Below the pieces are notes generated by a model. It made no database searches. It saw only the letters and a list, made by a program, of their open reading frames with translations, and was not told the origin of the DNA. Shown here piece after piece: positions 50,114 to 63,018 of a stretch of 64,000 nt of DNA (position 1 is the first letter of the stretch; every line of letters starts with the position of its first letter). Origin of the DNA: Vallitalea sp. GTDB lineage: Bacteria; Bacillota; Clostridia; Lachnospirales; Vallitaleaceae. The position numbers and the translations under genes were made by a program. The DNA lies in assembly GCA_025210515.1 (NCBI GenBank), contig JAOARM010000050.1, positions 62,001 to 126,000 on the forward strand, written 5' to 3'.

Positions 50114-50899
50114 ATGTTAGGCGAATATGATGTTAAAAAACAAATGTGTGAAGTTGGTAGAAGAATGTATGATAGAGGAATGGTTGCTGCAAATGATGGT
50201 AACATTAGTGTTAAAATAGCAGATAATGAGTTTTTATGTACACCTACTGGAGTAAGTAAAGGTTTTATGACACCAGAAATGATATGTAAAGTTGATATTA
50301 ATGGTAAAGTTCTTCAAGCTAACAAAGGGTTTAAACCTTCATCAGAAATAAAAATGCATTTAAGAGTATACAAAGAAAGACCAGATGTTAAATCTGTTGT
50401 TCATGCACATCCTATGTATGGAACTTCATTTGCTATTGCAGGTATACCTCTTACACAACCTATTATGCCAGAAGCTGTTATTGCACTTGGTTGTGTTCCT
50501 ATTGCTGAATACGGTACACCTTCAACTAATGAAATTCCAGATGCAGTAGAAAAATATCTTCAAAACTATGATGCAGTATTATTAGAAAATCACGGAGCAT
50601 TATCTTATGGTGATGGCTTAATGAATGCTTACTTCAAAATGGAATCATTAGAATTCTATGCACAATTATTATATTTATCAAAACAACTTGGTGGACCAAA
50701 AGAATTATCAGATAATCAAGTTCAAACTTTATACGATTTACGTTCAAGCTATGGATTAACTGGTAAACATCCAGGTAACTTATGTGGAAAAAATGGTTGT
50801 GCAGTAACTCCTAAAGAAGTAAAAAAAGAAGAATCAGATAGTGATTTAAGTGCAGTTATTGCAGAAGTAACAAAAAGAGTTATTGAACAATTAAAATAA
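50114..50899 (+). CDS. fucA: L-fuculose-phosphate aldolase (class II), microcompartment-targeted
   Basis: Cleaves L-fuculose 1-phosphate (or rhamnulose 1-phosphate) to dihydroxyacetone phosphate and lactaldehyde. Zinc and catalytic residues are seen as Glu78 (KPSSEIKMH), His97 and His99 (VVHAHPMYG) and His160 (LLENHGALSYGD). The core ends near residue 235; the remaining 25 residues form a linker plus the amphipathic helix DLSAVIAEVTKRVIEQLK. Such a C-terminal tail is a typical encapsulation peptide, as known for aldolases of fucose/rhamnose microcompartments in Clostridium phytofermentans. It is the first gene of the operon; pduC follows after 29 bases. Confidence 0.9.
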   Translation: MLGEYDVKKQMCEVGRRMYDRGMVAANDGNISVKIADNEFLCTPTGVSKGFMTPEMICKVDINGKVLQANKGFKPSSEIKMHLRVYKERPDVKSVVHAHPMYGTSFAIAGIPLTQPIMPEAVIALGCVPIAEYGTPSTNEIPDAVEKYLQNYDAVLLENHGALSYGDGLMNAYFKMESLEFYAQLLYLSKQLGGPKELSDNQVQTLYDLRSSYGLTGKHPGNLCGKNGCAVTPKEVKKEESDSDLSAVIAEVTKRVIEQLK

Positions 50900-50928
50900 A
50901 TCCCTTCATTGTAAGGAGAGAATAAAAT

Positions 50929-52593
50929 ATGAAACGTTCAAAAAGATTTGAAGTATTAGATAAGAGAGACGTCAATCAAGACGGGTATATAAATGAATGG
51001 CCAGAAAAAGGATTTATAGCTATGAATAGCCCTCTTGATCCTAAACCATCTATTAAAGTATCCAACGGGATAATAACTACAATGGATGGGATAGAAAGAA
51101 AAGATTTTGATTTTATTGACCAATTTATAGCTGATTATGCTATTAATTCAGATATAACAGAACAAATGATGGCGATTGATTCTCTAGATATAGCTAGAAG
51201 ATTAGTTGATATACATATTAAAAGAGAAGAAATTATTCAGATTGTATCAGGACTCACTCCAGCAAAGATTTGTGAAGTTGTAGGACACTTAAATGTTGTA
51301 GAGATGATGATGGCAATGCAGAAGATGAGAGCAAGAAAATCTCCTGCTAACCAAGCTCATATAACTAATCTAAAAGATAATCCAGTTCAAATTGCCGCAG
51401 ATGCAGCAGAAGGTGCTTTAAGAGGTTTTGCAGAAGAAGAAACAACAGTTGCAGTAGCTAGATATGCACCATTTAATGCTATAGCATTGCTAATTGGAGC
51501 TCAAGTTGGGCGAAGAGGCGTATTAACTCAATGTGCAGTAGAAGAAGCTATTGAACTAGATCTTGGAATTAGAGGACTAACAACTTATGCAGAAACAATA
51601 TCTGTATATGGAACAGAATCTGTTTTTGTTGACGGAGATGATACACCCTACTCAAAAGCTTTTCTAGCATCAGCTTATGCTTCTAGAGGATTGAAAATGC
51701 GATTCACATCAGGTACAGGTTCAGAAGTACTTATGGGAAATGCAGAAAGCAAATCAATGCTTTATCTTGAGACACGTTGTATATTAGTAACAAAAGGTGC
51801 TGGAGTACAAGGACTTCAAAATGGTTCTGTAAGTTGTATTGGAATACCTGCTTCTGTACCATCAGGAATTAGGGCAGTACTTGCAGAAAACCTAATTGCA
51901 GCTATGTTGGATTTAGAAGTTGCTTCTTCTAATGATCAGAGTTTCACTCATTCAGATCAGAGAAGAACAGCACGAACTATGATGCAGTTTCTACCTGGTA
52001 CAGACTTTATTTTCTCAGGATATAGTGGTACACCTAATTATGATAATATGTTTGCAGGTGCTAACTTCGACGCAGAAGATTTTGATGATTATAATGTTCT
52101 GCAAAGAGATTTGATGGTTGATGGAGGACTAAGACCAGTCAAAGAAGAAGAAGTAATTAAAACAAGAAGAAAAGCGGCAAAAGCTCTGCAAGGAGTATTC
52201 TTAGAACTAGGATTACCAACAATTACAGATGAAGAAGTAGAAGCGGCAGCTTATGCACATGGTAGTAAAGATATGCCAGATAGAGATATATTAGCTGATC
52301 TTGCAGCTATTGACGATATGATGAATAGAGGAATTACTGGACTTGATATTGTAAAAGCTTTGTATAACTCTTCTCATGAAGATGTTGCAAAAAGTGTACT
52401 TAATATGCTCAAGCAAAGAATATCTGGTAATTACCTTCATACTTCAGCAATACTTGATGACAGTTTTAATGTTATAAGTGCAGTTAATCATAAAAATGAT
52501 TATATGGGGCCAGGAACTGGATATAGAATACCAGAAAAAAGATGGCAAGAAATAAAAGATATCCCTCATATTATTAATTTAGATGATTTATAA
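50929..52593 (+). CDS. pduC: Propanediol dehydratase large subunit
   Basis: Catalytic alpha subunit of coenzyme-B12-dependent diol dehydratase, which converts 1,2-propanediol to propionaldehyde. The 554 residues begin KRFEVLDKRDVNQDGYINEW and include conserved blocks RKSPANQAHITNLKDNPVQI, AVEEAIELDLGIRGLTTYAE, TRCILVTKGAGVQGLQNGSV and FTHSDQRRTARTMMQFLPGT. These are characteristic of diol rather than glycerol-radical enzymes, so this locus is of the B12 type. Start after AAGGAGAGAATAAAAT. The subunit gene for pduD starts 13 bases after the stop. Confidence 0.96.
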   Translation: MKRSKRFEVLDKRDVNQDGYINEWPEKGFIAMNSPLDPKPSIKVSNGIITTMDGIERKDFDFIDQFIADYAINSDITEQMMAIDSLDIARRLVDIHIKREEIIQIVSGLTPAKICEVVGHLNVVEMMMAMQKMRARKSPANQAHITNLKDNPVQIAADAAEGALRGFAEEETTVAVARYAPFNAIALLIGAQVGRRGVLTQCAVEEAIELDLGIRGLTTYAETISVYGTESVFVDGDDTPYSKAFLASAYASRGLKMRFTSGTGSEVLMGNAESKSMLYLETRCILVTKGAGVQGLQNGSVSCIGIPASVPSGIRAVLAENLIAAMLDLEVASSNDQSFTHSDQRRTARTMMQFLPGTDFIFSGYSGTPNYDNMFAGANFDAEDFDDYNVLQRDLMVDGGLRPVKEEEVIKTRRKAAKALQGVFLELGLPTITDEEVEAAAYAHGSKDMPDRDILADLAAIDDMMNRGITGLDIVKALYNSSHEDVAKSVLNMLKQRISGNYLHTSAILDDSFNVISAVNHKNDYMGPGTGYRIPEKRWQEIKDIPHIINLDDL

Positions 52594-52606
52594 AGGTGGT
52601 GAAGGT

Positions 52607-53254
52607 GTGGAACTGTCGAATGAACTAATTGAACAGATTACCAAATTAGTGATACAAGAAATTAATAAAAGTAAGAATGTAGTAAATAAAGAAAGTAAAA
52701 CATTAGATTCTGTTCCTTCAATATTTAATGATATTAAAGTAGCAGAAAGAGGAGTTAATAGAAAAGAAGTAGCAATAGGTGTGGGCCCTGCTTTTGGAAG
52801 TATTATAACAAAAACTATAAACGATTTACAACACAAACAAGTTATAAAAGAGATAATGGCAGGTATAGAAGAAGAAGGAATGATTCCTAGATTAATAAGG
52901 GTTAATAAATCATCTGATGTAGCTTTTATTGGTAAGGAAGCAGCTAGGTTATCGGGATCTGGAATATCCATAGGAATCCAATCAAAAGGAACATCAATTA
53001 TTCATCAAAAAGATCTCTACCCACTTACTAATTTAGAATTATTTCCACAAGCACCACTTCTTACTCTAGAGACTTATAGACAAATAGGTAAAAATGCAGC
53101 TAAGTATGCTAAAGGAGCTTTAGTTAAACCGATTGAAAGTAAAAACGATTCTACTATAAGAGCCAAATATCAAGTAAAAGCTGCATTAATGCATACAAAA
53201 GAAACGGAATATGTTGTTAACGGAGGAAACTCTATAGATATAACATTAAGCTAA
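52607..53254 (+). CDS. pduD: Propanediol dehydratase medium subunit
   Basis: Beta subunit that helps bind adenosylcobalamin, 215 residues. The conserved core includes KEVAIGVGPAFGSIITKTIN, EEGMIPRLIRVNKSSDVAFI and GSGISIGIQSKGTSIIHQKD. An ATG at 52583 is in frame but lies inside pduC; AAAGGTGG (52592-52599) gives GTG 52607 as the start. With this start the protein opens with an amphipathic helix, ELIEQITKLVIQEIN, followed by a lysine/asparagine linker, the known arrangement by which PduD carries the dehydratase into the shell. Confidence 0.95.
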   Translation: MELSNELIEQITKLVIQEINKSKNVVNKESKTLDSVPSIFNDIKVAERGVNRKEVAIGVGPAFGSIITKTINDLQHKQVIKEIMAGIEEEGMIPRLIRVNKSSDVAFIGKEAARLSGSGISIGIQSKGTSIIHQKDLYPLTNLELFPQAPLLTLETYRQIGKNAAKYAKGALVKPIESKNDSTIRAKYQVKAALMHTKETEYVVNGGNSIDITLS

Positions 53255-53308
53255 TAGAATGCATCATATATAGTCTAATAATCTTAATAGGGAAAGGAAT
53301 GAAAGTTA

Positions 53309-53698
53309 ATGATAGAGTACCCTTTGCCAAAAGATAAGGTAAAAAGTAATACTGGTAAAAAGCTAGATGATATTAATATGAATAATGTATTAAATGGTAC
53401 TATAACTCCAGAAGATATTAAGATTTCAAAAGAAACGTTAAAACTCCAAGGAGAAATAGCTAAACAAGCTGGTAAAAAGCAACTTCAACAAAACTTTGAT
53501 AGAGCAAGTGAATTAATCAATGTAGAAGATGATCTAATACTTGAGATATATGATAAGCTTAGACCAAATAGAGCTACAAAAGATGAATTATTACAATATG
53601 TAAATGTATTAGAAACAAAATATAAAGCAAATAAATGTGCTGATTTTTTAAGAGATGCTATAGAGGTTTATGAGCGAAGAGGTATTTTGATAAAATAA
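53309..53698 (+). CDS. pduE: Propanediol dehydratase small subunit
   Basis: Gamma subunit of the diol dehydratase, 129 residues (somewhat shorter than the roughly 170 of Salmonella because the N-terminal extension is reduced). The conserved parts are GTITPEDIKISKETLKLQGE, FDRASELINVEDDLILEIYD and KANKCADFLRDAIEVYERRG. It begins with YPLPKDK, a usual N-terminus for the subunit. A 54-base gap follows pduD, and the start uses AAAGGAATGAAAGTTA. With pduC and pduD it forms the alpha2beta2gamma2 enzyme. Confidence 0.94.
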   Translation: MIEYPLPKDKVKSNTGKKLDDINMNNVLNGTITPEDIKISKETLKLQGEIAKQAGKKQLQQNFDRASELINVEDDLILEIYDKLRPNRATKDELLQYVNVLETKYKANKCADFLRDAIEVYERRGILIK

Positions 53699-53736
53699 GT
53701 AATTCAACTTATAGCACAATGATAAGGTGATAAGAG

Positions 53737-55545
53737 ATGAAGTATATAGCAGGTGTTGATATAGGTAATTCGACTACAGAAGTTTGCATTGGACATATTA
53801 ATGATAAAGGTATGTTAAAATTTTTATCAAGTGCTAGTGTAGATACTACTGGTACAAAAGGTACTACAGCTAATGTAGCAGGAATTAAAAATGCATTAAA
53901 TATTGCTATGAATAAGATAAATAAAACAAGTAATGATTTATCTGTAATCAGAATTAATGAGGCAGCTCCAGTAATAGGAGATACAGCTATGGAAACTATT
54001 ACAGAAACAATTATTACTGAGTCTACAATGATAGGACATAATCCAGATACGCCTGCTGGAGCAGGAATAGGTAAAGGATACATATATCCAATTGATGATA
54101 TAGAAAAATTATCTAATAATAAGCAATATATTTGTTTGATTCCAAAACACATTAATTATGAAGAAGCAGCTAATAAGCTTAACATATTAATGAAGAAATA
54201 TGAAATAACAGCTATAGTTATTCAAAGTGACGAAGCAGTTCTTACATATAATAGATTAGATAAAAAAGTACCAATAGTTGATGAAGTAAAATATATTGAT
54301 AAAATACCAATAGGGATGAAGGCGGTAGTAGAAGTGGCACCACAAGGACACACTATTAATAAGCTATCTAATCCATATGGAATTGCATCTATATTTAACT
54401 TAAACGCTGATGAAACTAAATATGTAGTACCAATAGCAAAAAGTTTTGTAGGAAGTAGATCAGCAATATTTATTAGAACTCCTAAAGGTTCAGTAAAAGA
54501 ACAAGCGATTAAAGCAGGAGAATTAACTATATATGGTGAGAAATTAATAGAAAAAGTACAGATTGATCTAGGTGCAAAAGAAGTAATGAAAGCATGTAAT
54601 AATGTATCTCCTATAATTGATGTAGAAGGTGAATCAGGTACTAATATTGGTAAAATGATTGATGAAATCAAGAAAAACATGCATAAGCTCACAGGAAATA
54701 GTAACAATGTTAAAATTAGAGATATTTTAGCGGTTGATACAATGATTCCTGTAGATGTAAAAGGAGCATTAGCAGGAGAAGTTTCTATGGAAAATGCTGT
54801 TGGAATTGCAGCTATGGTGAAAACAGAACATTTACCTATGGAAAACATTGCCAATATGCTACAAAAAGATACAGGAGTATACGTTAAGATTGCAGGAGTA
54901 GAAGCGGTTATGGCTTCATTAGGTGCATTGACTACACCAGGAACAAAACTTCCTATTGCAATACTAGATTTAGGTGGAGGTTCTACAGATGCCGCTATAT
55001 TAGATGAAAGTGGAACAGTCAAATCTGTACATTTAGCAGGTGCTGGACAATTAATAACAATGTTAATTAATACAGAGTTAGGACTTAGAGACTTTACATT
55101 AGCAGAAAATATTAAACGTCATCCATTAGCAAAAGTTGAAAGTTTATTTCATATAAGAATGGAAAACAAAGAAATAAACTTTTACGGTGAACCTTTATCA
55201 CCAAAATTATTTGGAAAAGTAGTTGTTCTAACAGATAAAGCTATGATTCCTATTAATAACAATTTGACAATGGAAAAGATAATTGAAGTAAGAAAATCAA
55301 TCAAACAGAAAGTTTTTGTTGATAATGCTATAAGAGCACTTACTCAGATTGCACCTAATGGGCAGCTAAGAAACATTCCTAATATTGTATTAGTTGGAGG
55401 AAGTGCATTGGATTTTGAAATACCAGATATGATTTTACATGAATTATCAAAACATAAAATTGTATCAGGTAGAGGAAATATAAGAAATTGTGAAGGCCCT
55501 AGAAATGCAGTGGCAACAGGCTTATTAATGTCTTATAAAGGCTAG
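53737..55545 (+). CDS. pduG: Diol dehydratase reactivase, large subunit
   Basis: ATP-dependent chaperone-like factor that removes damaged cobalamin from inactivated dehydratase. The 602-residue protein shows actin/Hsp70-like ATP-binding blocks (YIAGVDIGNSTTEVCIGHIN; AILDLGGGSTDAAILDESGT; PNIVLVGGSALDFEIPDMIL) and a large swivelling domain between. Length is usual. It starts after AAGGTGATAAGAG, and pduH follows after 25 bases. Several long antisense frames over this gene are shadows. Confidence 0.95.
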   Translation: MKYIAGVDIGNSTTEVCIGHINDKGMLKFLSSASVDTTGTKGTTANVAGIKNALNIAMNKINKTSNDLSVIRINEAAPVIGDTAMETITETIITESTMIGHNPDTPAGAGIGKGYIYPIDDIEKLSNNKQYICLIPKHINYEEAANKLNILMKKYEITAIVIQSDEAVLTYNRLDKKVPIVDEVKYIDKIPIGMKAVVEVAPQGHTINKLSNPYGIASIFNLNADETKYVVPIAKSFVGSRSAIFIRTPKGSVKEQAIKAGELTIYGEKLIEKVQIDLGAKEVMKACNNVSPIIDVEGESGTNIGKMIDEIKKNMHKLTGNSNNVKIRDILAVDTMIPVDVKGALAGEVSMENAVGIAAMVKTEHLPMENIANMLQKDTGVYVKIAGVEAVMASLGALTTPGTKLPIAILDLGGGSTDAAILDESGTVKSVHLAGAGQLITMLINTELGLRDFTLAENIKRHPLAKVESLFHIRMENKEINFYGEPLSPKLFGKVVVLTDKAMIPINNNLTMEKIIEVRKSIKQKVFVDNAIRALTQIAPNGQLRNIPNIVLVGGSALDFEIPDMILHELSKHKIVSGRGNIRNCEGPRNAVATGLLMSYKG

Positions 55546-55570
55546 CAAAAAATACCTTGAAGGTGAAATT

Positions 55571-55906
55571 ATGGAGCATTGCAGACCAGAAATTAATGTA
55601 TGTTATTCAAAAGAAAATATTAAGCTAATAAAATATATAAAAGCAGGAATCGAAGAAGAAGGACTTTTTACTCATTGTTATGAAGTATTAGAAGATAATA
55701 GCATTAAGTTAGCTTATGAAGCTTCTAAAAGTTCATTATTAGGAGTAGGAATTAGCGTTATTAAACAAGAAGCAGTTTTACATATATACGATTTAAAAGA
55801 AGATAAGCCAATATATATTATTAATGTTGATAACAATGAAAAATTAAAAATTCTAGGTAGCAATGCCGCAAGATACGTCAAGAGAATAGCTTTTAAAGAA
55901 TTATAA
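55571..55906 (+). CDS. pduH: Diol dehydratase reactivase, small subunit
   Basis: A 111-residue partner of PduG that resembles the dehydratase beta subunit, so that the two can swap places during reactivation. Its conserved parts are IKAGIEEEGLFTHCYEVLED, EASKSSLLGVGISVIKQEAV and SNAARYVKRIAFKEL. Slightly shorter than enteric PduH (about 116-125). The start follows TTGAAGGTGAAATT. The next gene, pduO, starts 27 bases after the stop. Confidence 0.9.
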   Translation: MEHCRPEINVCYSKENIKLIKYIKAGIEEEGLFTHCYEVLEDNSIKLAYEASKSSLLGVGISVIKQEAVLHIYDLKEDKPIYIINVDNNEKLKILGSNAARYVKRIAFKEL

Positions 55907-55933
55907 AGTTAGTGCGGAAGGACCGATGCTAAT

Positions 55934-56923
55934 ATGGAAAAATTTAATCATGTTTTTACTAAGCAAGGCGATAAAGGATATACAAAGTTATATAATGGTA
56001 CAAAAGTAGATAAAGATAATATTTTTATTGAAGCAAACGGACATCTTGACGAATTAACATCTTACATAGGATTAGTAAAAAGCAAATTAGAAGATAAAAA
56101 GCTGGTTCAGCAGATGGAAGCAATACAAAATCAACTAATTGTTGTTATGGGTGTTGTAGCAGGATTAGATAATAAAATTGATATACAATCAGAATTAGAT
56201 AAAATTGAATCATGGATAATAGAATACGAAAAGAAATATCCAAAGCAAACTAGTTTCGTACTACCAGGAAAATGTGAATTATCGGCTCATATAGATATAG
56301 CAAGAACGATTTGCCGTCGTGCTGAGAGAAATCTAGTAAAGTGTTTAAGAGAAAGCAATATAGACGATAGTCTTCCTAAATATATTAATAGATTATCCGA
56401 TTATTTTCATGTGGTAGCAAGATATATTGAGTTTGTACAAGTGATTGATGAAAAAGTAAAAGAGATTATATGGAGCGCTGATTGCAAAGTGATAAATAAC
56501 AAATTAAATGATATTAATCTAGAGCAAGCGAAAAAGATAATGGATGGCGTTCAACAAAAAGCCTCTGAAATGGGTATTAATGTAGTAATAGCTATAAGTA
56601 ACAAAGATGGAAATCCTATTGCAGTTCATGTAATGGATAATGCATATATTGCAAGTTATGATATAGCAGTAAACAAAGCATTTACTTCAGTAAGTTTGAA
56701 AATGACTACTGAGAAGCTAAGTGAATTAGCAAAACCAGATGGTTCATTATATGGAATACAGTTTACTAATAATGGACGAATAGTTATTTTCGGAGGAGGA
56801 ACTCCTCTTATCTATGAAGATAGCATAATTGGTGGTCTGGGAGTTAGTGGAGGAAGTGCTGAAGAAGATACATTATTAGCTAATTATGGAGCAGACCTAA
56901 TACGAAAGGAGTGGAACAGGTAG
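55934..56923 (+). CDS. pduO: ATP:cob(I)alamin adenosyltransferase with GlcG-like C-terminus
   Basis: Two-domain PduO, 329 residues. Residues 1-185 are the adenosyltransferase that makes adenosylcobalamin for the dehydratase (VFTKQGDKGYTKLYNGTKVD; LPGKCELSAHIDIARTICRR with the conserved RRAERNLV). Residues about 195-329 are a GlcG/DUF336 domain (LEQAKKIMDGVQQKASEMG; LYGIQFTNNGRIVIFGGGTP), known to bind heme or cobalamin in PduO homologues. Start after GGAAGGACCGATGCTAAT. The pduP start overlaps its stop (TAGTG). Confidence 0.93.
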   Translation: MEKFNHVFTKQGDKGYTKLYNGTKVDKDNIFIEANGHLDELTSYIGLVKSKLEDKKLVQQMEAIQNQLIVVMGVVAGLDNKIDIQSELDKIESWIIEYEKKYPKQTSFVLPGKCELSAHIDIARTICRRAERNLVKCLRESNIDDSLPKYINRLSDYFHVVARYIEFVQVIDEKVKEIIWSADCKVINNKLNDINLEQAKKIMDGVQQKASEMGINVVIAISNKDGNPIAVHVMDNAYIASYDIAVNKAFTSVSLKMTTEKLSELAKPDGSLYGIQFTNNGRIVIFGGGTPLIYEDSIIGGLGVSGGSAEEDTLLANYGADLIRKEWNR

Positions 56924-58320
56924 TGAATAATATTGATATTGAATCAATTGTAAAAAGTGTTATAATAAATATGCAAAGTGACAAAGTAAGTACTAATAAC
57001 ACTTTAAATGGTGTTTTCGATAAAATGGAAGATGCAATAGATGCTAGTATCGAAGCACAAAAAGTAGTTAGACAATTACCATTAGAGTTTAGAGAAAAAA
57101 TAATAGATAACATTAGAAAGAAAACAATCCAACATGCTGAAAAATTTGCAGAGCTTGGAGTAAAAGAAACAGGAATGGGACGTATAGGTGATAAAGTCCT
57201 AAAGCATAAATTAGTTGCAGAAAAAACACCAGGTACTGAAGATATTAAAACAGTAGCATGGTCAGGAGATAGAGGATTGACTCTAGTAGAGCAAGGACCT
57301 TTTGGTGTTATTGGAGCAATTACTCCATCAACTAATCCAAGTGAAACAGTTATCTGTAATACAATAGGAATGATTGCAGGTGGTAACACAGTTGTATTTA
57401 ATCCTCATCCAGGAGCAATAGGAGTATCTAATTACGCAGTTAATCTTGTTAATGAAGCTTCTGTAGAAGTAGGTGGACCTAATAATATAGCAGTATCTGT
57501 TGCAAAGCCAACTCTTGAAACTGCTGATATTATGTTTAAGCATAAAAACATTCAGTTATTAGTTGCAACAGGTGGTCCAGGAGTTGTTACAGCAGTATTA
57601 TCATCAGGTAGAAGAGCAATCGGAGCTGGAGCAGGTAATCCTCCTGTAGTTGTTGATGAAACAGCAGATATTAGAAAAGCTGCTTATGATATATATAACG
57701 GAGCTACATTTGACAATAACTTACCATGTATTGCAGAAAAAGAAGTTATTGTTGTAGCAGAAGTAGCTGATGAATTAATATATTATATGCAAGAAGCTGG
57801 AAGTTATATGATTACTGGTGATGAAATTGATAGATTAGCTAAGACAGTATTAGTTAATAAAAATGGAAAATTAGTAATTAATCGTGACTATGTAGGAAAA
57901 GATGCAAGTTATATATTAAGCGCTATAGGAATAAATGTAGATGATAATACAAGATGTATTATATTTGAAGCAGACGGAGATCATCCTTTAGTTGTAGAAG
58001 AACTTATGATGCCAATACTTGGAATAGTAAGAGTAGAAGATGTAGATAAAGCTATTGATCTTGCAGTAAGCCTTGAGCATGGCAATCGTCATTCAGCACA
58101 TATGCATTCTAAAAATGTAGATAATCTTACTAAGTATGGACAACGTATAGATACAGCAATATTTGTAAAAAATGCTCCATCTTATGCGGCATTAGGTTTT
58201 GGTGGAGAAGGTTATTGTACATTTACAATTGCTAGTAGAACAGGTGAAGGACTTACATCTGCAAGTTCATTCACTAAAAACAGAAGATGCGTTATGGCAG
58301 AAAGCTTATGCATTAGATAA
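56923..58320 (+). CDS. pduP: CoA-acylating propionaldehyde dehydrogenase
   Basis: Oxidises propionaldehyde to propionyl-CoA inside the compartment, with NAD+. The 465-residue protein has the catalytic cysteine in NNLPCIAEKEVI and the cofactor-binding blocks GPFGVIGAITPSTNPSETVI, VATGGPGVVTAVLSSGRRAI and GAGNPPVVVDETADIRKAAY. GTG 56911 is also in frame, but GTG 56923 overlaps the pduO stop and gives the typical N-terminal encapsulation helix NNIDIESIVKSVIINMQ and then a Ser/Asn linker. The same helix, nearly word for word, opens the alcohol dehydrogenase downstream. Confidence 0.95.
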   Translation: MNNIDIESIVKSVIINMQSDKVSTNNTLNGVFDKMEDAIDASIEAQKVVRQLPLEFREKIIDNIRKKTIQHAEKFAELGVKETGMGRIGDKVLKHKLVAEKTPGTEDIKTVAWSGDRGLTLVEQGPFGVIGAITPSTNPSETVICNTIGMIAGGNTVVFNPHPGAIGVSNYAVNLVNEASVEVGGPNNIAVSVAKPTLETADIMFKHKNIQLLVATGGPGVVTAVLSSGRRAIGAGAGNPPVVVDETADIRKAAYDIYNGATFDNNLPCIAEKEVIVVAEVADELIYYMQEAGSYMITGDEIDRLAKTVLVNKNGKLVINRDYVGKDASYILSAIGINVDDNTRCIIFEADGDHPLVVEELMMPILGIVRVEDVDKAIDLAVSLEHGNRHSAHMHSKNVDNLTKYGQRIDTAIFVKNAPSYAALGFGGEGYCTFTIASRTGEGLTSASSFTKNRRCVMAESLCIR

Positions 58321-58336
58321 TAAAGGAGATGAGCTA

Positions 58337-59539
58337 ATGGAACTTAATAATATTGATATTGAATCAATTGTTAAACAAGTTATGAATCAAGTTTCAAGTG
58401 ATAGTATAGAAACTAATACTGTACAAAACAAAGTTGTACCTAATACTGCAAGAGTAGCAATGCTTACAGATATTAAAAAAATAGAAGTAAAAGAATATGA
58501 AATTCCAAGCATTAATGATGACGAAATGTTAATCAAAGTAGAAGGCTGTGGAATATGTGGTACAGATGTACACGAATACAAAGGCGATCCATTCTCACTT
58601 ATTCCTGTTGTGTTAGGACATGAAGGAACAGGAGAGATTGTCAAAATAGGTAAGAACATCAATAATGATACTATAGGAAATAACATTACAATTGGAGATA
58701 AAATTGTTACAAGTACAATTCCTTGTGGAGTATGTGATAGTTGTTTAACTATGTCTGATAAAGATAATCTATGTGAAAGCTCTGGAATATATGGTCTTAT
58801 ACCAGATGACAATAAGAAATTCAACGGATGGTTTGGAGACTATTTAATAATAAGAAAAGGTTCTACTTTCTTTAAAGTAAATGATATGGACTTAAAAACT
58901 AGATTATTGATTGAACCAGCTGCTGTTGCAGTTCATGCAGTAGAGAGAGCTAAGTCAACAGGATTATTATCATTCAATAGTACAGTTCTTATTCAAGGAT
59001 GTGGACCAATTGGATTATTAGTACTAGCTGTTGCTAGAACTATGGGAATTGAGAACATAATAGCAGTAGATGGTGATGTTAACCGTCTTGAAATGGCTAA
59101 GAGATTAGGAGCTAAACATACTATTAACTTTAGAAATTATAAAGATAATGAACAAGTAGTCCTAAGAGTAAAAGAAATTACAAAACGTGGAGCAGATTTT
59201 GCTTTCCAATGTACAGGAGTTCCTCAAGCAGCAGCAAATATATGGAAGTTTGTTAAGCGTGGTGGAGGATTATGTGAAGTAGGATTTTTCGTTGATAATG
59301 GAAATTGTTCCATTAATCCTCATTTTGATATTTGTAATAAAGAAATCACATTAGTAGGTTCTTGGGTATACAAAGTATCAGATTATCCAATAACACTTGA
59401 CTTCTTAAGAAGAGCTAAAGGAATTAATTTACCAATTGAAGATCTTATTACTCATGAGTATCCATTAGATAAATTAAATGAAGCTATGGAAACTAATATG
59501 AAACAATCAGGTATTAAGATTGCTTATGTAAATAACTAA
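58337..59539 (+). CDS. Zinc-type alcohol dehydrogenase with encapsulation peptide
   Basis: A 400-residue medium-chain (MDR) dehydrogenase that likely reduces propionaldehyde (and perhaps lactaldehyde) while regenerating NAD+ inside the shell. Residues 1-22 form an encapsulation helix, NNIDIESIVKQVMNQ, then a linker of about 20 residues. Catalytic zinc ligands are Cys74 and His95/Glu96 (CGICGTDVHE; LGHEGTGE); structural zinc cysteines lie in CGVCDSCLTMSDKDNLC; the Rossmann motif is GCGPIGLLVLAVARTMG. Enteric pdu loci use the iron-type PduQ in this place, so this is a non-homologous substitution. The frame opens at 58199, but AAAGGAG before ATG 58337 fixes the start. Confidence 0.88.
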   Translation: MELNNIDIESIVKQVMNQVSSDSIETNTVQNKVVPNTARVAMLTDIKKIEVKEYEIPSINDDEMLIKVEGCGICGTDVHEYKGDPFSLIPVVLGHEGTGEIVKIGKNINNDTIGNNITIGDKIVTSTIPCGVCDSCLTMSDKDNLCESSGIYGLIPDDNKKFNGWFGDYLIIRKGSTFFKVNDMDLKTRLLIEPAAVAVHAVERAKSTGLLSFNSTVLIQGCGPIGLLVLAVARTMGIENIIAVDGDVNRLEMAKRLGAKHTINFRNYKDNEQVVLRVKEITKRGADFAFQCTGVPQAAANIWKFVKRGGGLCEVGFFVDNGNCSINPHFDICNKEITLVGSWVYKVSDYPITLDFLRRAKGINLPIEDLITHEYPLDKLNEAMETNMKQSGIKIAYVNN

Positions 59540-59582: not shown

Positions 59583-59894
59583 ATGAATCAGGCAGTTGGA
59601 CTTTTAGAGGTGTTTGGATTAGTTGCAGGTTTTGTTGCCGCTGATGCGGCATGTAAAGCAGGTAATGTGTATATTGAATCTTTTGATAAAAATAAACCTT
59701 TAAATGCAGATAAATTACCTGTTCCGTTGTTAGTTTGTTTGAAAATACGCGGTAATATAGAGGACGTAAGAGCTGCTATGGAAGCGGCTGAAAGAGCGGC
59801 TAATAACCTTACTGGTGTATATACAAAACATATAATTGCAAGACCAACGGAAGAAACTGAAAAGATGTTAGGGCTTAATTGCCTTAATGGATAA
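59583..59894 (+). CDS. BMC-H shell protein with loop insertion
   Basis: A 103-residue single-BMC-domain shell protein that forms hexameric tiles. It shows QAVGLLEVFGLVAGFVAADA at the N-terminus and a C-terminal HIIARPTEETEKMLG. Between the second and third strands an extra segment of roughly ten residues (FDKNKPLNADKLPVPLLV) is inserted compared with PduA/PduJ, and cysteines occur at AACKAG and LVCLK. Such inserts occur in hexamers that sit at special positions in the shell or carry altered pores. Start after AAGGATGTTGTAAT. First of four BMC-H genes in a row. Confidence 0.9.
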   Translation: MNQAVGLLEVFGLVAGFVAADAACKAGNVYIESFDKNKPLNADKLPVPLLVCLKIRGNIEDVRAAMEAAERAANNLTGVYTKHIIARPTEETEKMLGLNCLNG

Positions 59895-59953
59895 ATTAAG
59901 TTAAAATAAATTTATAATAAAATAATATGGAAAATTATAAGGAGGAATAAATT

Positions 59954-60229
59954 ATGCAAGAAGCATTAGGTATGGTAGAAACAAGAGGATTAGTAGCAGC
60001 AATAGAGGCAGCAGACGCAATGGTAAAGGCAGCAGATGTAGCGTTAATAGGTACAGAAAAAATTGGTTCAGGACTTGTTAGTGTTATGGTAAGAGGTGAC
60101 GTAGGAGCAGTTAAAGCTGCAACAGAAGTTGGTTCAGAAGCAGCTTCAAGACTTGGTGAATTAGTAGCAGTTCATGTAATACCAAGACCTCATGGTGATA
60201 TTGATAAGATTTTACCAGGAATCAAGTAA
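59954..60229 (+). CDS. pduJ: BMC-H shell protein, PduA/PduJ type
   Basis: A 91-residue hexamer-forming shell protein of the canonical kind: [20 protein letters not shown], then [20 protein letters not shown], and [18 protein letters not shown]. The pore residue region KIGSG is as in PduA, which lets propanediol through. It differs from the BMC domain encoded at 61079 by only about seven residues over 90, so the two arose by recent duplication. Start after AAGGAGGAATAAATT. A perfect 12-bp hairpin (60296-60331) follows in the intergenic gap. Confidence 0.93.
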
Positions 60230-60295
60230 TAAGTAATACTGTATAATTATTCAAAAACAGGTCAATATATTGAACGTATAATACTAAGCATTATA

Positions 60296-60331
60296 GGTTA
60301 ATCCACATGATATACTTATTGTGGATTAACC
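60296..60331 (+). other. Intercistronic hairpin in the BMC operon
   Basis: GGTTAATCCACA (60296-60307) pairs perfectly with TGTGGATTAACC (60320-60331), loop of 12 bases, no T run. It is flanked by two AT palindromes (TCAATATATTGA near 60262 and TTTCAATATATTTGAAA at 60337-60353). More likely a mRNA processing or stability element than a full terminator. Confidence 0.6.
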
Positions 60332-60364
60332 AAGATTTCAATATATTTGAAAGGAAGAAGCATA

Positions 60365-60652
60365 ATGAAAGCTTTAGGATTAGTTGAAATATCAGGATTA
60401 GTACCTGCAATTAATGCGTTAGATGGTATGTTAAAAACAGCAGATGTTGAATTTGTAACTTGGGAAAAGAAGCTTGGTGGAAGACTTGTAACCATTATTA
60501 TTACAGGAAGTGTTTCATCTGTAAAAGAAGCTGTTCATTATGTTACAGATATGAGAGATATTAAACTAGTAGCTCATGCAGTAATACCAAGTCCTCATTC
60601 AGAATTAGAAAAATTAATTGAGGTAAGCACTAAAAAATATGATTATTTATAG
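60365..60652 (+). CDS. BMC-H shell protein, divergent
   Basis: A 95-residue single BMC domain: KALGLVEISGLVPAINALDG at the N-terminus, KKLGGRLVTIIITGSVSSVK in the middle and AVIPSPHSELEKLIEVSTKK at the C-terminus. It is only distantly similar to the PduA-type hexamers beside it: the pore region LGG replaces IGSG, suggesting a different pore. A TTG 60347 is in frame, but AAGGAAG lies before ATG 60365. It may match the role of PduK or PduU, but no C-terminal Fe-S domain is present, so no symbol is given. Confidence 0.88.
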   Translation: MKALGLVEISGLVPAINALDGMLKTADVEFVTWEKKLGGRLVTIIITGSVSSVKEAVHYVTDMRDIKLVAHAVIPSPHSELEKLIEVSTKKYDYL

Positions 60653-60709
60653 ATAATTATTCGCTTACAGGAATAATAAATATAGTCGTAAGATTGGTGG
60701 TGTTAAAGA

Positions 60710-61351
60710 GTGCCAGAAGTTTTAGAAAAAGAACAAGTTATTGTAGTAGAAGATACTACTAATGAAAAAAAGAATAGTAAAGCAAAAAATAATAAAACAA
60801 AGAAAAATAAATCAGTAGCAAAAAAGAAGTCAGCCAAACAAGAGGTTGTAGAAGAAATTAAAGAGCAAGTCGAACCAGTTAAAGAAGAAGAAAAGAAAGA
60901 ACAAGCTACACCAGATAAGAAAGAAGATAAGCCAAATAAAGTAGATAAAGAAGAAAAACCAAAGACAGATAACAAAACAAATAATAAAAAAGCTAAAACT
61001 AGTAAAAAGAAAAGTGAAGCTAAAGACACTGGTAATGTGAAAGAAAAACAAATAATTAATCATAAGGAGGATTTTAAAATGGAAGCATTAGGTATGGTAG
61101 AAACTAGAGGATTAGTAGCAGCAATAGAGGCAGCAGATGCAATGGTGAAAGCTGCAAATGTAACTTTAATAGGTACAGAAAAAATAGGTTCAGGTCTTGT
61201 TAGTGTAATGGTAAGAGGAGATGTAGGAGCAGTTAAAGCGGCTACAGAAACAGGTTCTCAAGCAGCATCAAGACTTGGAGAGTTAGTAGCTGTACATGTA
61301 ATACCAAGACCACACGGTGATGTAAGTAAAATATTACCAGAAATTAAGTAA
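60710..61351 (+). CDS. BMC-H shell protein with 123-residue charged extension (dual start)
   Basis: A 213-residue frame starting at GTG 60710 after GGTGGTG. Residues 1-123 are extremely rich in Lys, Glu, Asp, Asn and Thr, without hydrophobic core ([40 protein letters not shown]), and so predicted disordered. Residues 124-213 are a complete PduA-type hexamer domain ([20 protein letters not shown]), about 92% identical to the 59954 gene. A strong internal ribosome binding site, AAGGAGG (61064-61070), sits 8 bases before the in-frame ATG 61079, so a 90-residue canonical form should be made as well, as for PduB/PduB'. The extension may link shell and cargo (inference). Confidence 0.85.
61064..61081 (+). 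promoter_or_regulatory. Internal ribosome binding site and start codon
   Basis: AAGGAGG at 61064-61070, 8-base spacer, ATG 61079-61081, all within the open 60710 frame where it encodes HKEDFKM. This is stronger than the outer start site (GGTGGTG, GTG) and would favour the short form. Confidence 0.8.
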
Positions 61352-61412: not shown

Positions 61413-62054
61413 ATGAATCAGTTAGAATTAGTTGATTTAATATCTAAAAAAGTTTTACAAGAAGTTAGACAGCCAAAAGGCGGTATTCCAGTAGGAGTAT
61501 CTGCAAGACATCTTCATCTAAGTAAAGAAGACGTTGAAAAGTTATTTGGAGTAGGCTATGAACTTACACCTATAAAAGAGTTAATGGGTGGACAGTATGC
61601 AGCTAAAGAAACAGTTACTATTGTTGGAACAAAACTTAGACCAATTGAAAATGTAAGAGTTCTTGGTCCAACACGTTCAAAAACTCAAGTTGAAGTTGCT
61701 AAAACTGACGCTATAAGACTTGGTCTTAATCCACCAGTTAAACCTTCTGGTGAACTAGAAGGTTCGGCTCCAATAACTATAGTTGGTCCAAAAGGTGCAA
61801 TTACTCTTGAAAATGCATGTATTATTGCTATGAGACACATACATATGTCTCCTCAAGATGCAATAGAATATGGAGTGAAAGATAAAGAGATTGTAGATGT
61901 TGAAGTTTCTTCAGATAGAGGAGGAGTGTTCACTAACGTATTAGTTAGAGTTCATGATACCTATACTCTAGAGATGCATATTGATACTGATGAGGCGAAT
62001 GCTCTTAGTGTAAAATGTAATGATAGTGTAAAAATATTAAAGGTATATAAATAA
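61413..62054 (+). CDS. pduL: Phosphate propanoyltransferase
   Basis: Transfers the propionyl group from CoA to phosphate, regenerating CoA inside the shell. The 213-residue protein has the two zinc-binding histidine motifs of PduL, SARHLHLSKEDVEKLFG and AMRHIHMSPQDAIEYGVKDK, and the block GGVFTNVLVRVHDTYTLEMH. The first 17 residues, NQLELVDLISKKVLQEV, form an amphipathic helix and match the N-terminal encapsulation peptides of shell-borne PduL enzymes. Start after AAAGGAATTGATACATA. A strong hairpin follows the stop. Confidence 0.95.
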   Translation: MNQLELVDLISKKVLQEVRQPKGGIPVGVSARHLHLSKEDVEKLFGVGYELTPIKELMGGQYAAKETVTIVGTKLRPIENVRVLGPTRSKTQVEVAKTDAIRLGLNPPVKPSGELEGSAPITIVGPKGAITLENACIIAMRHIHMSPQDAIEYGVKDKEIVDVEVSSDRGGVFTNVLVRVHDTYTLEMHIDTDEANALSVKCNDSVKILKVYK

Positions 62055-62179: not shown

Positions 62180-62446
62180 ATGATAGTTGGTAAAGTAATA
62201 GGAACTTTAGTGGCTACGAGAAAACTAGATAATTTAGTTGGTAGTAAGTTTCTTATAATAGAAAGTGCTGCTAAGATGGGGACAGAAAATAGAATAGTTG
62301 CAGTTGATCAAGTTGGAGCTGGAATTGGAGATGTTGTATTAGTAACATTAGGTAGTGCTGCTAGAATTGGTAGTAGAGTACAAGAATCATCCGTTGACGC
62401 AGCTGTTGTTGGAATTGTAGATGATGAGAATAATATTGAATTTTAA
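62180..62446 (+). CDS. pduN: BMC-P vertex protein (EutN/CcmL family)
   Basis: An 88-residue pentamer-forming shell protein that caps the vertices. Its EutN/CcmL pattern is clear: MIVGKVIGTLVATRKLDNLV, GSKFLIIE, VAVDQVGAGIGDVVLVTLGSAAR and VDAAVVGIVD. Pentamers are essential for closing a compartment. Start after AGGTAGGTGGAAATAA, and the trimer gene follows after 26 bases. Confidence 0.95.
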   Translation: MIVGKVIGTLVATRKLDNLVGSKFLIIESAAKMGTENRIVAVDQVGAGIGDVVLVTLGSAARIGSRVQESSVDAAVVGIVDDENNIEF

Positions 62447-62472
62447 CTCATATTAAGAACGAGGTGATTAAG

Positions 62473-63018
62473 TTGGAATATGCACTTGGAATGGTTGAAT
62501 TTAAAAATATTGCCATGGGTATTACAATAACAGATTTAATGGTAAAATCAGCAGGGGTTAAGATAGTTAAGTCTTTAATAACATGTCCAGGAAAATATAT
62601 GGTTATTATTAGAGGAAAACTAAGCTCTATTAATGCGGCTATAGAAAAAAGTTTTGAATATGAAGAGATAATTGCTGACCATTTTATACTAGGAAATCCT
62701 CATGAGAGTATTTTTAAAGCATTTGAAGGAAGTTATGAATTAAATAAAGATGAAGCATTAGGTATTATTGAAACATCAAACGTACCATGTTTAATAGAAG
62801 CGGCAGATACAATTGTAAAAACAGCAAGATGTAGTATTCTAAAAATAAAGATGGCAAGAGAACTTGGAGGAAAAGCATTAGTATTATTTTCAGGTGAAAT
62901 TGCAGCAGTTAATGCATCATCTAAGGCTGCTATTAAATATATATCAGAAAAAGACAAATTAATTAGTCATTCAATAATAGCTAGCCCAGATCCTATGGTT
63001 TGGGAAAGTGTTATATAA
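62473..63018 (+). CDS. pduT: BMC-T trimer shell protein, PduT type
   Basis: A 181-residue tandem-BMC-domain protein (EYALGMVEFKNIAMGITITD and DEALGIIETSNVPCLIEAAD start the two repeats). In the first repeat KSLITCPGKY places Cys38, the residue that holds a [4Fe-4S] cluster in the central pore of PduT trimers. GTG 62464 is in frame, but GAGGTG at 62461-62466 is itself the ribosome binding site, so TTG 62473 is the start; this also puts the cysteine exactly at position 38. It is the only tandem-domain shell protein of the locus and its last gene. Confidence 0.9.
   Translation: MEYALGMVEFKNIAMGITITDLMVKSAGVKIVKSLITCPGKYMVIIRGKLSSINAAIEKSFEYEEIIADHFILGNPHESIFKAFEGSYELNKDEALGIIETSNVPCLIEAADTIVKTARCSILKIKMARELGGKALVLFSGEIAAVNASSKAAIKYISEKDKLISHSIIASPDPMVWESVI

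Follow-up and report, generated by a model that had tools for sequence, protein, structure and literature searches.

The encapsulation peptides described for the Pdu enzymes PduP, PduD, and PduL, which are cited here, like the other published systems below, from excerpts of the reports concerned, are N-terminal segments of approximately 18 residues with an alternating hydrophobic pattern followed by a flexible linker (PMC12339742, PMC12108088). Different encapsulation tags of this type co-assemble, and a hydrophobic core is combined in them with an acid/base pair one helical turn apart (PMC12339742). In Salmonella, the alcohol dehydrogenase PduQ recycles NAD+ for PduP in the compartment and binds PduP directly, with an estimated two PduP per PduQ (PMC3471927). 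In the fucose/rhamnose bacterial microcompartment (BMC) of Clostridium phytofermentans, PduP (Cphy_1178) and a zinc-type medium-chain dehydrogenase/reductase (MDR) alcohol dehydrogenase (ADH; Cphy_1179), a type assigned there as propanol dehydrogenase, are encoded next to each other in a locus that also contains an aldolase (PMC3557285). In the present study, we analyzed a stretch of 64,000 nucleotides from Vallitalea sp. (GCA_025210515.1, contig JAOARM010000050.1, positions 62,001 to 126,000; hereafter the window), in which the PduP and zinc-type ADH of a predicted microcompartment operon both start with a tag containing the ten-residue core NNIDIESIVK.

The window has the same arrangement of aldolase, PduP, and ADH as C. 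phytofermentans, with PduP and ADH adjacent, and differs in the dehydratase, which is B12-independent in C. phytofermentans and is a B12-dependent diol dehydratase with a reactivase and PduO in the window (PMC3557285); a B12 enzyme with this BMC type has been reported for Clostridium methylpentosum (PMC6620236). PduP, PduD, and PduL of the operon carry the same type of N-terminal segment and linker as the known Pdu peptides, and the E and K of the window's PduP and ADH tags have the four-residue spacing of the published salt bridge (PMC12339742, PMC12108088). A shared tag chemistry of a known kind is likely. Unlike the known Pdu tags, the ADH has an N-terminal tag of its own with the core of PduP, and its encapsulation is predicted from this sequence. 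Although this ADH would recycle NAD+ for PduP in a similar manner to Salmonella PduQ (PMC3471927), it belongs to the zinc enzymes, is unrelated to PduQ, and carries a tag at its N-terminus. In the open-access literature searched, nothing on point was found regarding the duplication or coevolution of encapsulation peptides. For the BMC locus of V. guaymasensis, the genome paper states that 'no propanediol oxidoreductase was identified' (PMC6163223), and the tagged zinc ADH of the window may be regarded, by analogy, as a candidate for the alcohol/aldehyde step left open in that species.

The stretch AATAATATTGATATTGAATCAATTGT is present at 56926-56951 and 58346-58371 (G000:C32:118926-118951 and 120346-120371 in the assembly) with 26 identical bases, and no third site with three or fewer mismatches to it was found in the 3.5-Mb assembly. 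The identity ends at the flanking bases, with the preceding base (g vs t) and the following base (GTA vs GTT) both differing. With GTG 56923 taken as the PduP start, the core begins at residue 2 of this enzyme; in ADH, it follows MEL and begins at residue 4. The sequence thus confirmed the first-pass annotation with regard to the shared peptide and the 26 bases, and also with regard to the catalytic parts, which are unrelated (PF00171 in PduP vs PF08240/PF00107 in ADH), the likeness being confined to the tags. The pattern I..IV..V[IM]..[MV] and the E and K of ESIVK occur in both tags, each of which is, as judged from its sequence, a terminal segment of 15-20 residues with amphipathic hydrophobic spacing; a similar pattern was found in all 47 loci of a first alignment, in which the anchor score favours the motif.

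Two further properties of encapsulation peptides were found. Among the five congeneric genomes described below, the linkers vary in length and sequence while the cores stay, and the ADH extension is absent from homologues outside microcompartment loci. When 80 loci were read by eye for the latter, all 11 ADHs with pduP in the locus were tagged, whereas among the 69 loci without a pduP match, some of which are short, a clear ADH tag was seen only in L042-L045, and the match in L105 and L109 starts too late to judge. The annotation of both segments as encapsulation-type tags was retained.

We consider it highly probable that these segments are ordinary encapsulation peptides inherited with each enzyme, and that their 26-base identity represents the same peptide written, by chance, in common codons. 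In a codon null, in which the same peptide was encoded with the codon usage of the 42 long open reading frames of the window (28% GC), the probability of one or no difference in 30 nt was 0.0175 and that of an identical run of at least 26 was 0.008. With Ile nearly fixed as ATT, these values became 0.096 and 0.073, a calibration that was made on the tags themselves and is partly circular; ATT accounts for 26 of the 27 core Ile codons in ten congeneric tags (hand count; window 56926-56955 and 58346-58375 together with L113-L116). The window's tags resemble each other more closely than do those of its congeners through two codons, TCA instead of TCC in ADH and AAT instead of AAC in PduP, but both are the far commoner choice here (TCA 0.29 vs TCC 0.03; AAT 0.83 vs AAC 0.17), and the adjacent Val codon differs, so that a recent event in the window is unnecessary. 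Considering the codon-null probabilities, the shared peptide is the non-random part, to which the DNA match adds little. It also needs to be considered that the window drew attention because of its extreme match. As a separate observation, ATA is approximately as common as ATT in the genes of the window, despite the dominance of ATT in the tag cores.

The inheritance of the tags was examined in a larger set of loci. Both genes were present in 51 loci, of which 47 entered the first alignment after the exclusion of three repeat contigs and a locus with a truncated PduP; both enzymes were tagged in all 47. From 129 loci subsequently examined, 103 were kept (26 had no usable PduP), and the removal of two duplicates and of L284, in which the anchor was misplaced, left 100. 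The anchor score that places the tags favours its own motif, which partly accounts for the presence of a tag in all of the loci kept; the tag peptides were additionally read by eye. The tags cluster by enzyme, not by genome: with ties excluded, 93 of 100 PduP tags and 98 of 100 ADH tags had their best-scoring neighbour in the tag of the same enzyme from a different genome, and only 1 of 200 tags scored best against its own partner. Concerted evolution, as assessed by the nearest neighbour, was rejected on this basis. Codons at matching residues were identical in 242 of 557 cases within a genome, against 258.9 expected over the 100 loci, and in 229 of 534 cases when the partner was taken from the phylogenetic sister genome (Fisher p 0.85).

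Regarding the genus, six genomes of the Vallitalea group were searched and the locus was found in five (the window, G014, G015, G017, and G018), all of which have kept both tags. The PduP and ADH cores of 30 nt differ at 1 position in the window, 3 in G017, 5 in G015, and 7 each in G014 and G018. The mean of these own-genome differences (4.6) is close to that between PduP and ADH of different genomes (4.7, 20 pairs), while orthologous cores differ at 3.85 positions (20 pairs), and codons are identical at 31 of 55 matching residues, with 28.2 expected from codon usage. The residue following the core is Ser in all five PduP tags and Gln in all five ADH tags. Against three congeneric ADH cores that encode the same peptide (L113, L115, and L116), the ADH core of the window has two codon differences, one at Ser (TCC/TCA), where the window is like PduP, and the other at Val (GTA/GTT), where it is unlike PduP. 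The concerted evolution of the tags that had been anticipated for related genomes was thus not apparent in their DNA. Divergence at the rate of the genes, which had been named as the opposite outcome, was observed in part: synonymous codons in the tags differ approximately as in the enzymes, whereas 8-10 of the ten core residues are identical between congeners, and divergence in the tag tail and linker outpaces that of the enzymes.

Several results weigh against an explanation by ordinary tags and common codons. The cores of PduP and ADH share 10, 10, 7, 9, and 9 of 10 residues in the five genus genomes, while the own-pair maximum in the 95 other loci is 7 and the maximum in all 9,025 combinations of their PduP and ADH tags is 8. 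Four of the five genus genomes (9-10 of 10) therefore exceed every combination from other genera, the fifth (7 of 10) does not, and an independent-column calculation gave a probability of approximately 2e-7 for a match of 10 of 10. The agreement between the two tags in the genus goes far beyond what the general motif gives, as the first-pass annotation had implied, and is not explained by ordinary tags alone. At the level of DNA, no other locus among the 100 is as extreme as the window, in which 11 of 12 codons are identical (6.05 expected, z 3.0) and the longest identical run is 26, the next longest being 17; a private, very short conversion tract would be compatible with these statistics alone. 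Moreover, in comparisons of the window with its congeners, synonymous sites have almost reached saturation (identity 0.55-0.67, with 0.50-0.57 expected), and the DNA is thus silent on old events.

An alternative that accommodates the protein-level match is an event in the stem of the genus, in which a copy of the ADH tag head (approximately 10 codons) replaced that of the PduP tag while the PduP tail stayed in place, with the synonymous sites overwritten since. We regard this event as possible, albeit rather unlikely. In addition to the core matches, it is favoured by profile log-odds, for which the PduP and ADH tag profiles left out relatives and were weighted: the genus PduP cores score +9.7 to +11.7 bits towards ADH and include five of the six highest values among the 100 loci, while their tails (-0.3 to -2.7) are PduP-like, which gives these tags a chimaeric appearance. 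However, even the weighted profiles rest mostly on Lachnospiraceae-type PduP tags, which biases what counts as PduP-like, and Clostridium-type PduP tags (L036-L039) likewise have ADH-like cores, which weakens the copying reading. In the nearest outgroup, L121, the PduP core is neutral (-0.2) and the tail is ADH-like (+10.6), a result that does not decide between copying and convergence. The convergence of a ten-residue helix under selection would produce the same picture, and old copying has left no trace in the DNA. The head of the PduP tag may thus have been replaced from the ADH tag in the genus stem, or the two may have converged on one helix by selection. The wider idea that tags pass between unrelated enzymes, with the ADH head having replaced the PduP head in the Vallitalea-group ancestor and the redox pair having shared one docking or bundling surface since then, is slightly more tentative still. 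An old exchange of the tag head is the one remaining, more interesting possibility. In L038 and L039 (Clostridium sp.), an [LI]EEI[IV]K core is common to the tags of PduP and ADH, which may represent a second case of matched tags.

The coevolution of the two tags, in which both track a common partner (a shell site or each other) and drift to the same residues within each genome, appears more doubtful. In 50 phylogenetically disjoint genome pairs, matching in register showed an excess of 0.44 residues (sign-flip p 0.004), which none of 1,000 random enzyme window pairs reached and which was not found by identity scoring in registers shifted by 1-6 residues (lowest p 0.20); a partial Mantel test gave r 0.13 and p 0.007. 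However, the effect is small, and the excess comes from pairs with unequal GC content at third codon positions (GC3; 0.76, p 0.003), is not seen in GC-matched pairs (0.12, p 0.32), and, hence, may be explained by amino-acid composition. The genus-level test without family f1 gave p 0.15, and two small, weak tests, with the tags of PduL (9 genera) and of the aldolase (20 genera), detected no such signal. The acid/base pair did not show co-occurrence across the two tags by genus (both, 5; ADH only, 19; neither, 7; Fisher p 0.56). The in-register excess, which is not separable from base composition, is only suggestive. In L117-L119, which belong to other genera of the window's family, Q..IV[SA]K replaces E..IVK in both tags, with the acid/base pair being lost together.

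A recent duplication or gene conversion, in which a tract of approximately 26 bases was copied from one of the two genes to the other within the lineage of the window, as the first-pass annotation had proposed, is very improbable and was rejected on the codon nulls, the congeners, and the 100 loci, since, even with a 26-nt identity that is unique in the genome and the highest codon identity of the 100 loci, the tail, linker, and upstream DNA are unlike between the two genes, the tags of relatives already encode the same or nearly the same peptide in both genes, neither the four congeners nor the 100 loci show any sign of conversion, and synonymous sites are no more alike within than between genomes.

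If the tags are ordinary encapsulation peptides inherited per enzyme, both segments would be short amphipathic helices on flexible linkers, which may gather cargo by bundling together, by docking on the shell of the fucose/1,2-propanediol microcompartment, or by both. Each enzyme would have acquired its tag long before the genus and passed it on with its own gene; by the time of the Vallitalea-group ancestor, the PduP tag would have matched the ADH tag over its first ten residues, and both cores may be maintained by selection on the helix, with the same peptide in the common codons of a 28% GC genome happening to give 26 identical bases. PduP consumes NAD+, which ADH would regenerate, as PduQ does in Salmonella; with identical cores, the two enzymes could join common bundles or dock at common shell sites, which would lead to the co-loading of an NAD+-reducing and an NADH-oxidising enzyme. 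Published work makes it plausible, by analogy, that the two tags share a docking or bundling site. The loading of the two enzymes in a fixed ratio, which had also been suggested, does not follow because a shared site predicts competition set by expression. These results separate a shared functional peptide from shared DNA ancestry, which are easily confused in AT-rich genomes, and demonstrate the inheritance of tags per enzyme over approximately 100 loci. The genus, with its natural match between the tags of PduP and ADH, also provides a good system for investigating whether tag identity controls the co-localisation of a redox pair.

Both tagged genes lie within an operon that is predicted from its gene content to encode a fucose/1,2-propanediol microcompartment, with a fuculose-phosphate-type aldolase, B12-dependent diol dehydratase and its reactivase, PduO, PduP, ADH, PduL, and six shell proteins (Table 1); an L-fucose isomerase gene is located upstream, and, among named relatives, the locus is closest to that of a Vallitalea sp. 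metagenome-assembled genome (L033).

Table 1. Features of the microcompartment operon in the window.
Feature	Position	Strand	Support
Class II aldolase, fuculose-phosphate aldolase-like, with a different, C-terminal tag DLSAVIAEVTKRVIEQLK	50114..50899	+	PF00596
B12-dependent diol dehydratase, large, medium, and small subunits; medium subunit with its own different N-terminal tag ELSNELIEQITKLVIQEI	50929..53698	+	
Diol dehydratase reactivase, large and small subunits	53737..55906	+	PF08841/PF18427 and PF02288
PduO-type adenosyltransferase fused to an HbpS-like domain	55934..56923	+	
PduP-type CoA-acylating aldehyde dehydrogenase with N-terminal tag	56923..58320	+	PF00171 (E 8.5e-33); NF011927 (E 3e-203 over 1-465)
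PduP tag core NNIDIESIVK	56926..56955	+	Sequence; kept in 5/5 congeneric genomes with 0-2 residue changes
PduP tag tail and linker (SVIINMQS, then DKVSTNNTLNG), unlike the ADH tail	56956..57012	+	
Zinc-type medium-chain alcohol dehydrogenase (ADH) with N-terminal tag	58337..59539	+	PF08240, PF00107
ADH tag core NNIDIESIVK	58346..58375	+	Sequence, congener comparison
Four BMC-domain shell proteins	59583..61351	+	PF00936
PduL phosphate propanoyltransferase with a different N-terminal tag NQLELVDLISKKVLQEV	61413..62054	+	PF06130
Shell proteins, pentamer-type (EutN/CcmL) and tandem BMC-domain	62180..63018	+	PF03319; PF00936 (2 stretches)

The C-terminal tag of the aldolase and the N-terminal tags of PduD and PduL have a hydrophobic pattern similar to that of the PduP and ADH tags, with different sequences. 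The most likely start of PduP is GTG 56923, which overlaps the TAG stop codon of pduO by one base, with GTG 56911 as an alternative; in the four congeners, the likely start is one codon further upstream (M-V-[NS]-N). ADH starts at ATG 58337. Its placement among the zinc MDR ADHs is based on the presence of both MDR domains and on the adjoining pduP in the window and its relatives, and it is likely to be an NAD+-regenerating propanol dehydrogenase, as predicted from the enzyme type and its position by analogy with Cphy_1179 (PMC3557285).

The B12-dependent diol dehydratase and fuculose-phosphate-type aldolase are combined in one BMC operon (50114-56923, +), an arrangement that was termed surprising for C. 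methylpentosum in the portion of the report cited here (PMC6620236). The BMC-domain shell protein at 60710-61351 (+) has a Lys/Glu-rich N-terminal extension of approximately 120 residues, with the domain itself at residues 126-201.
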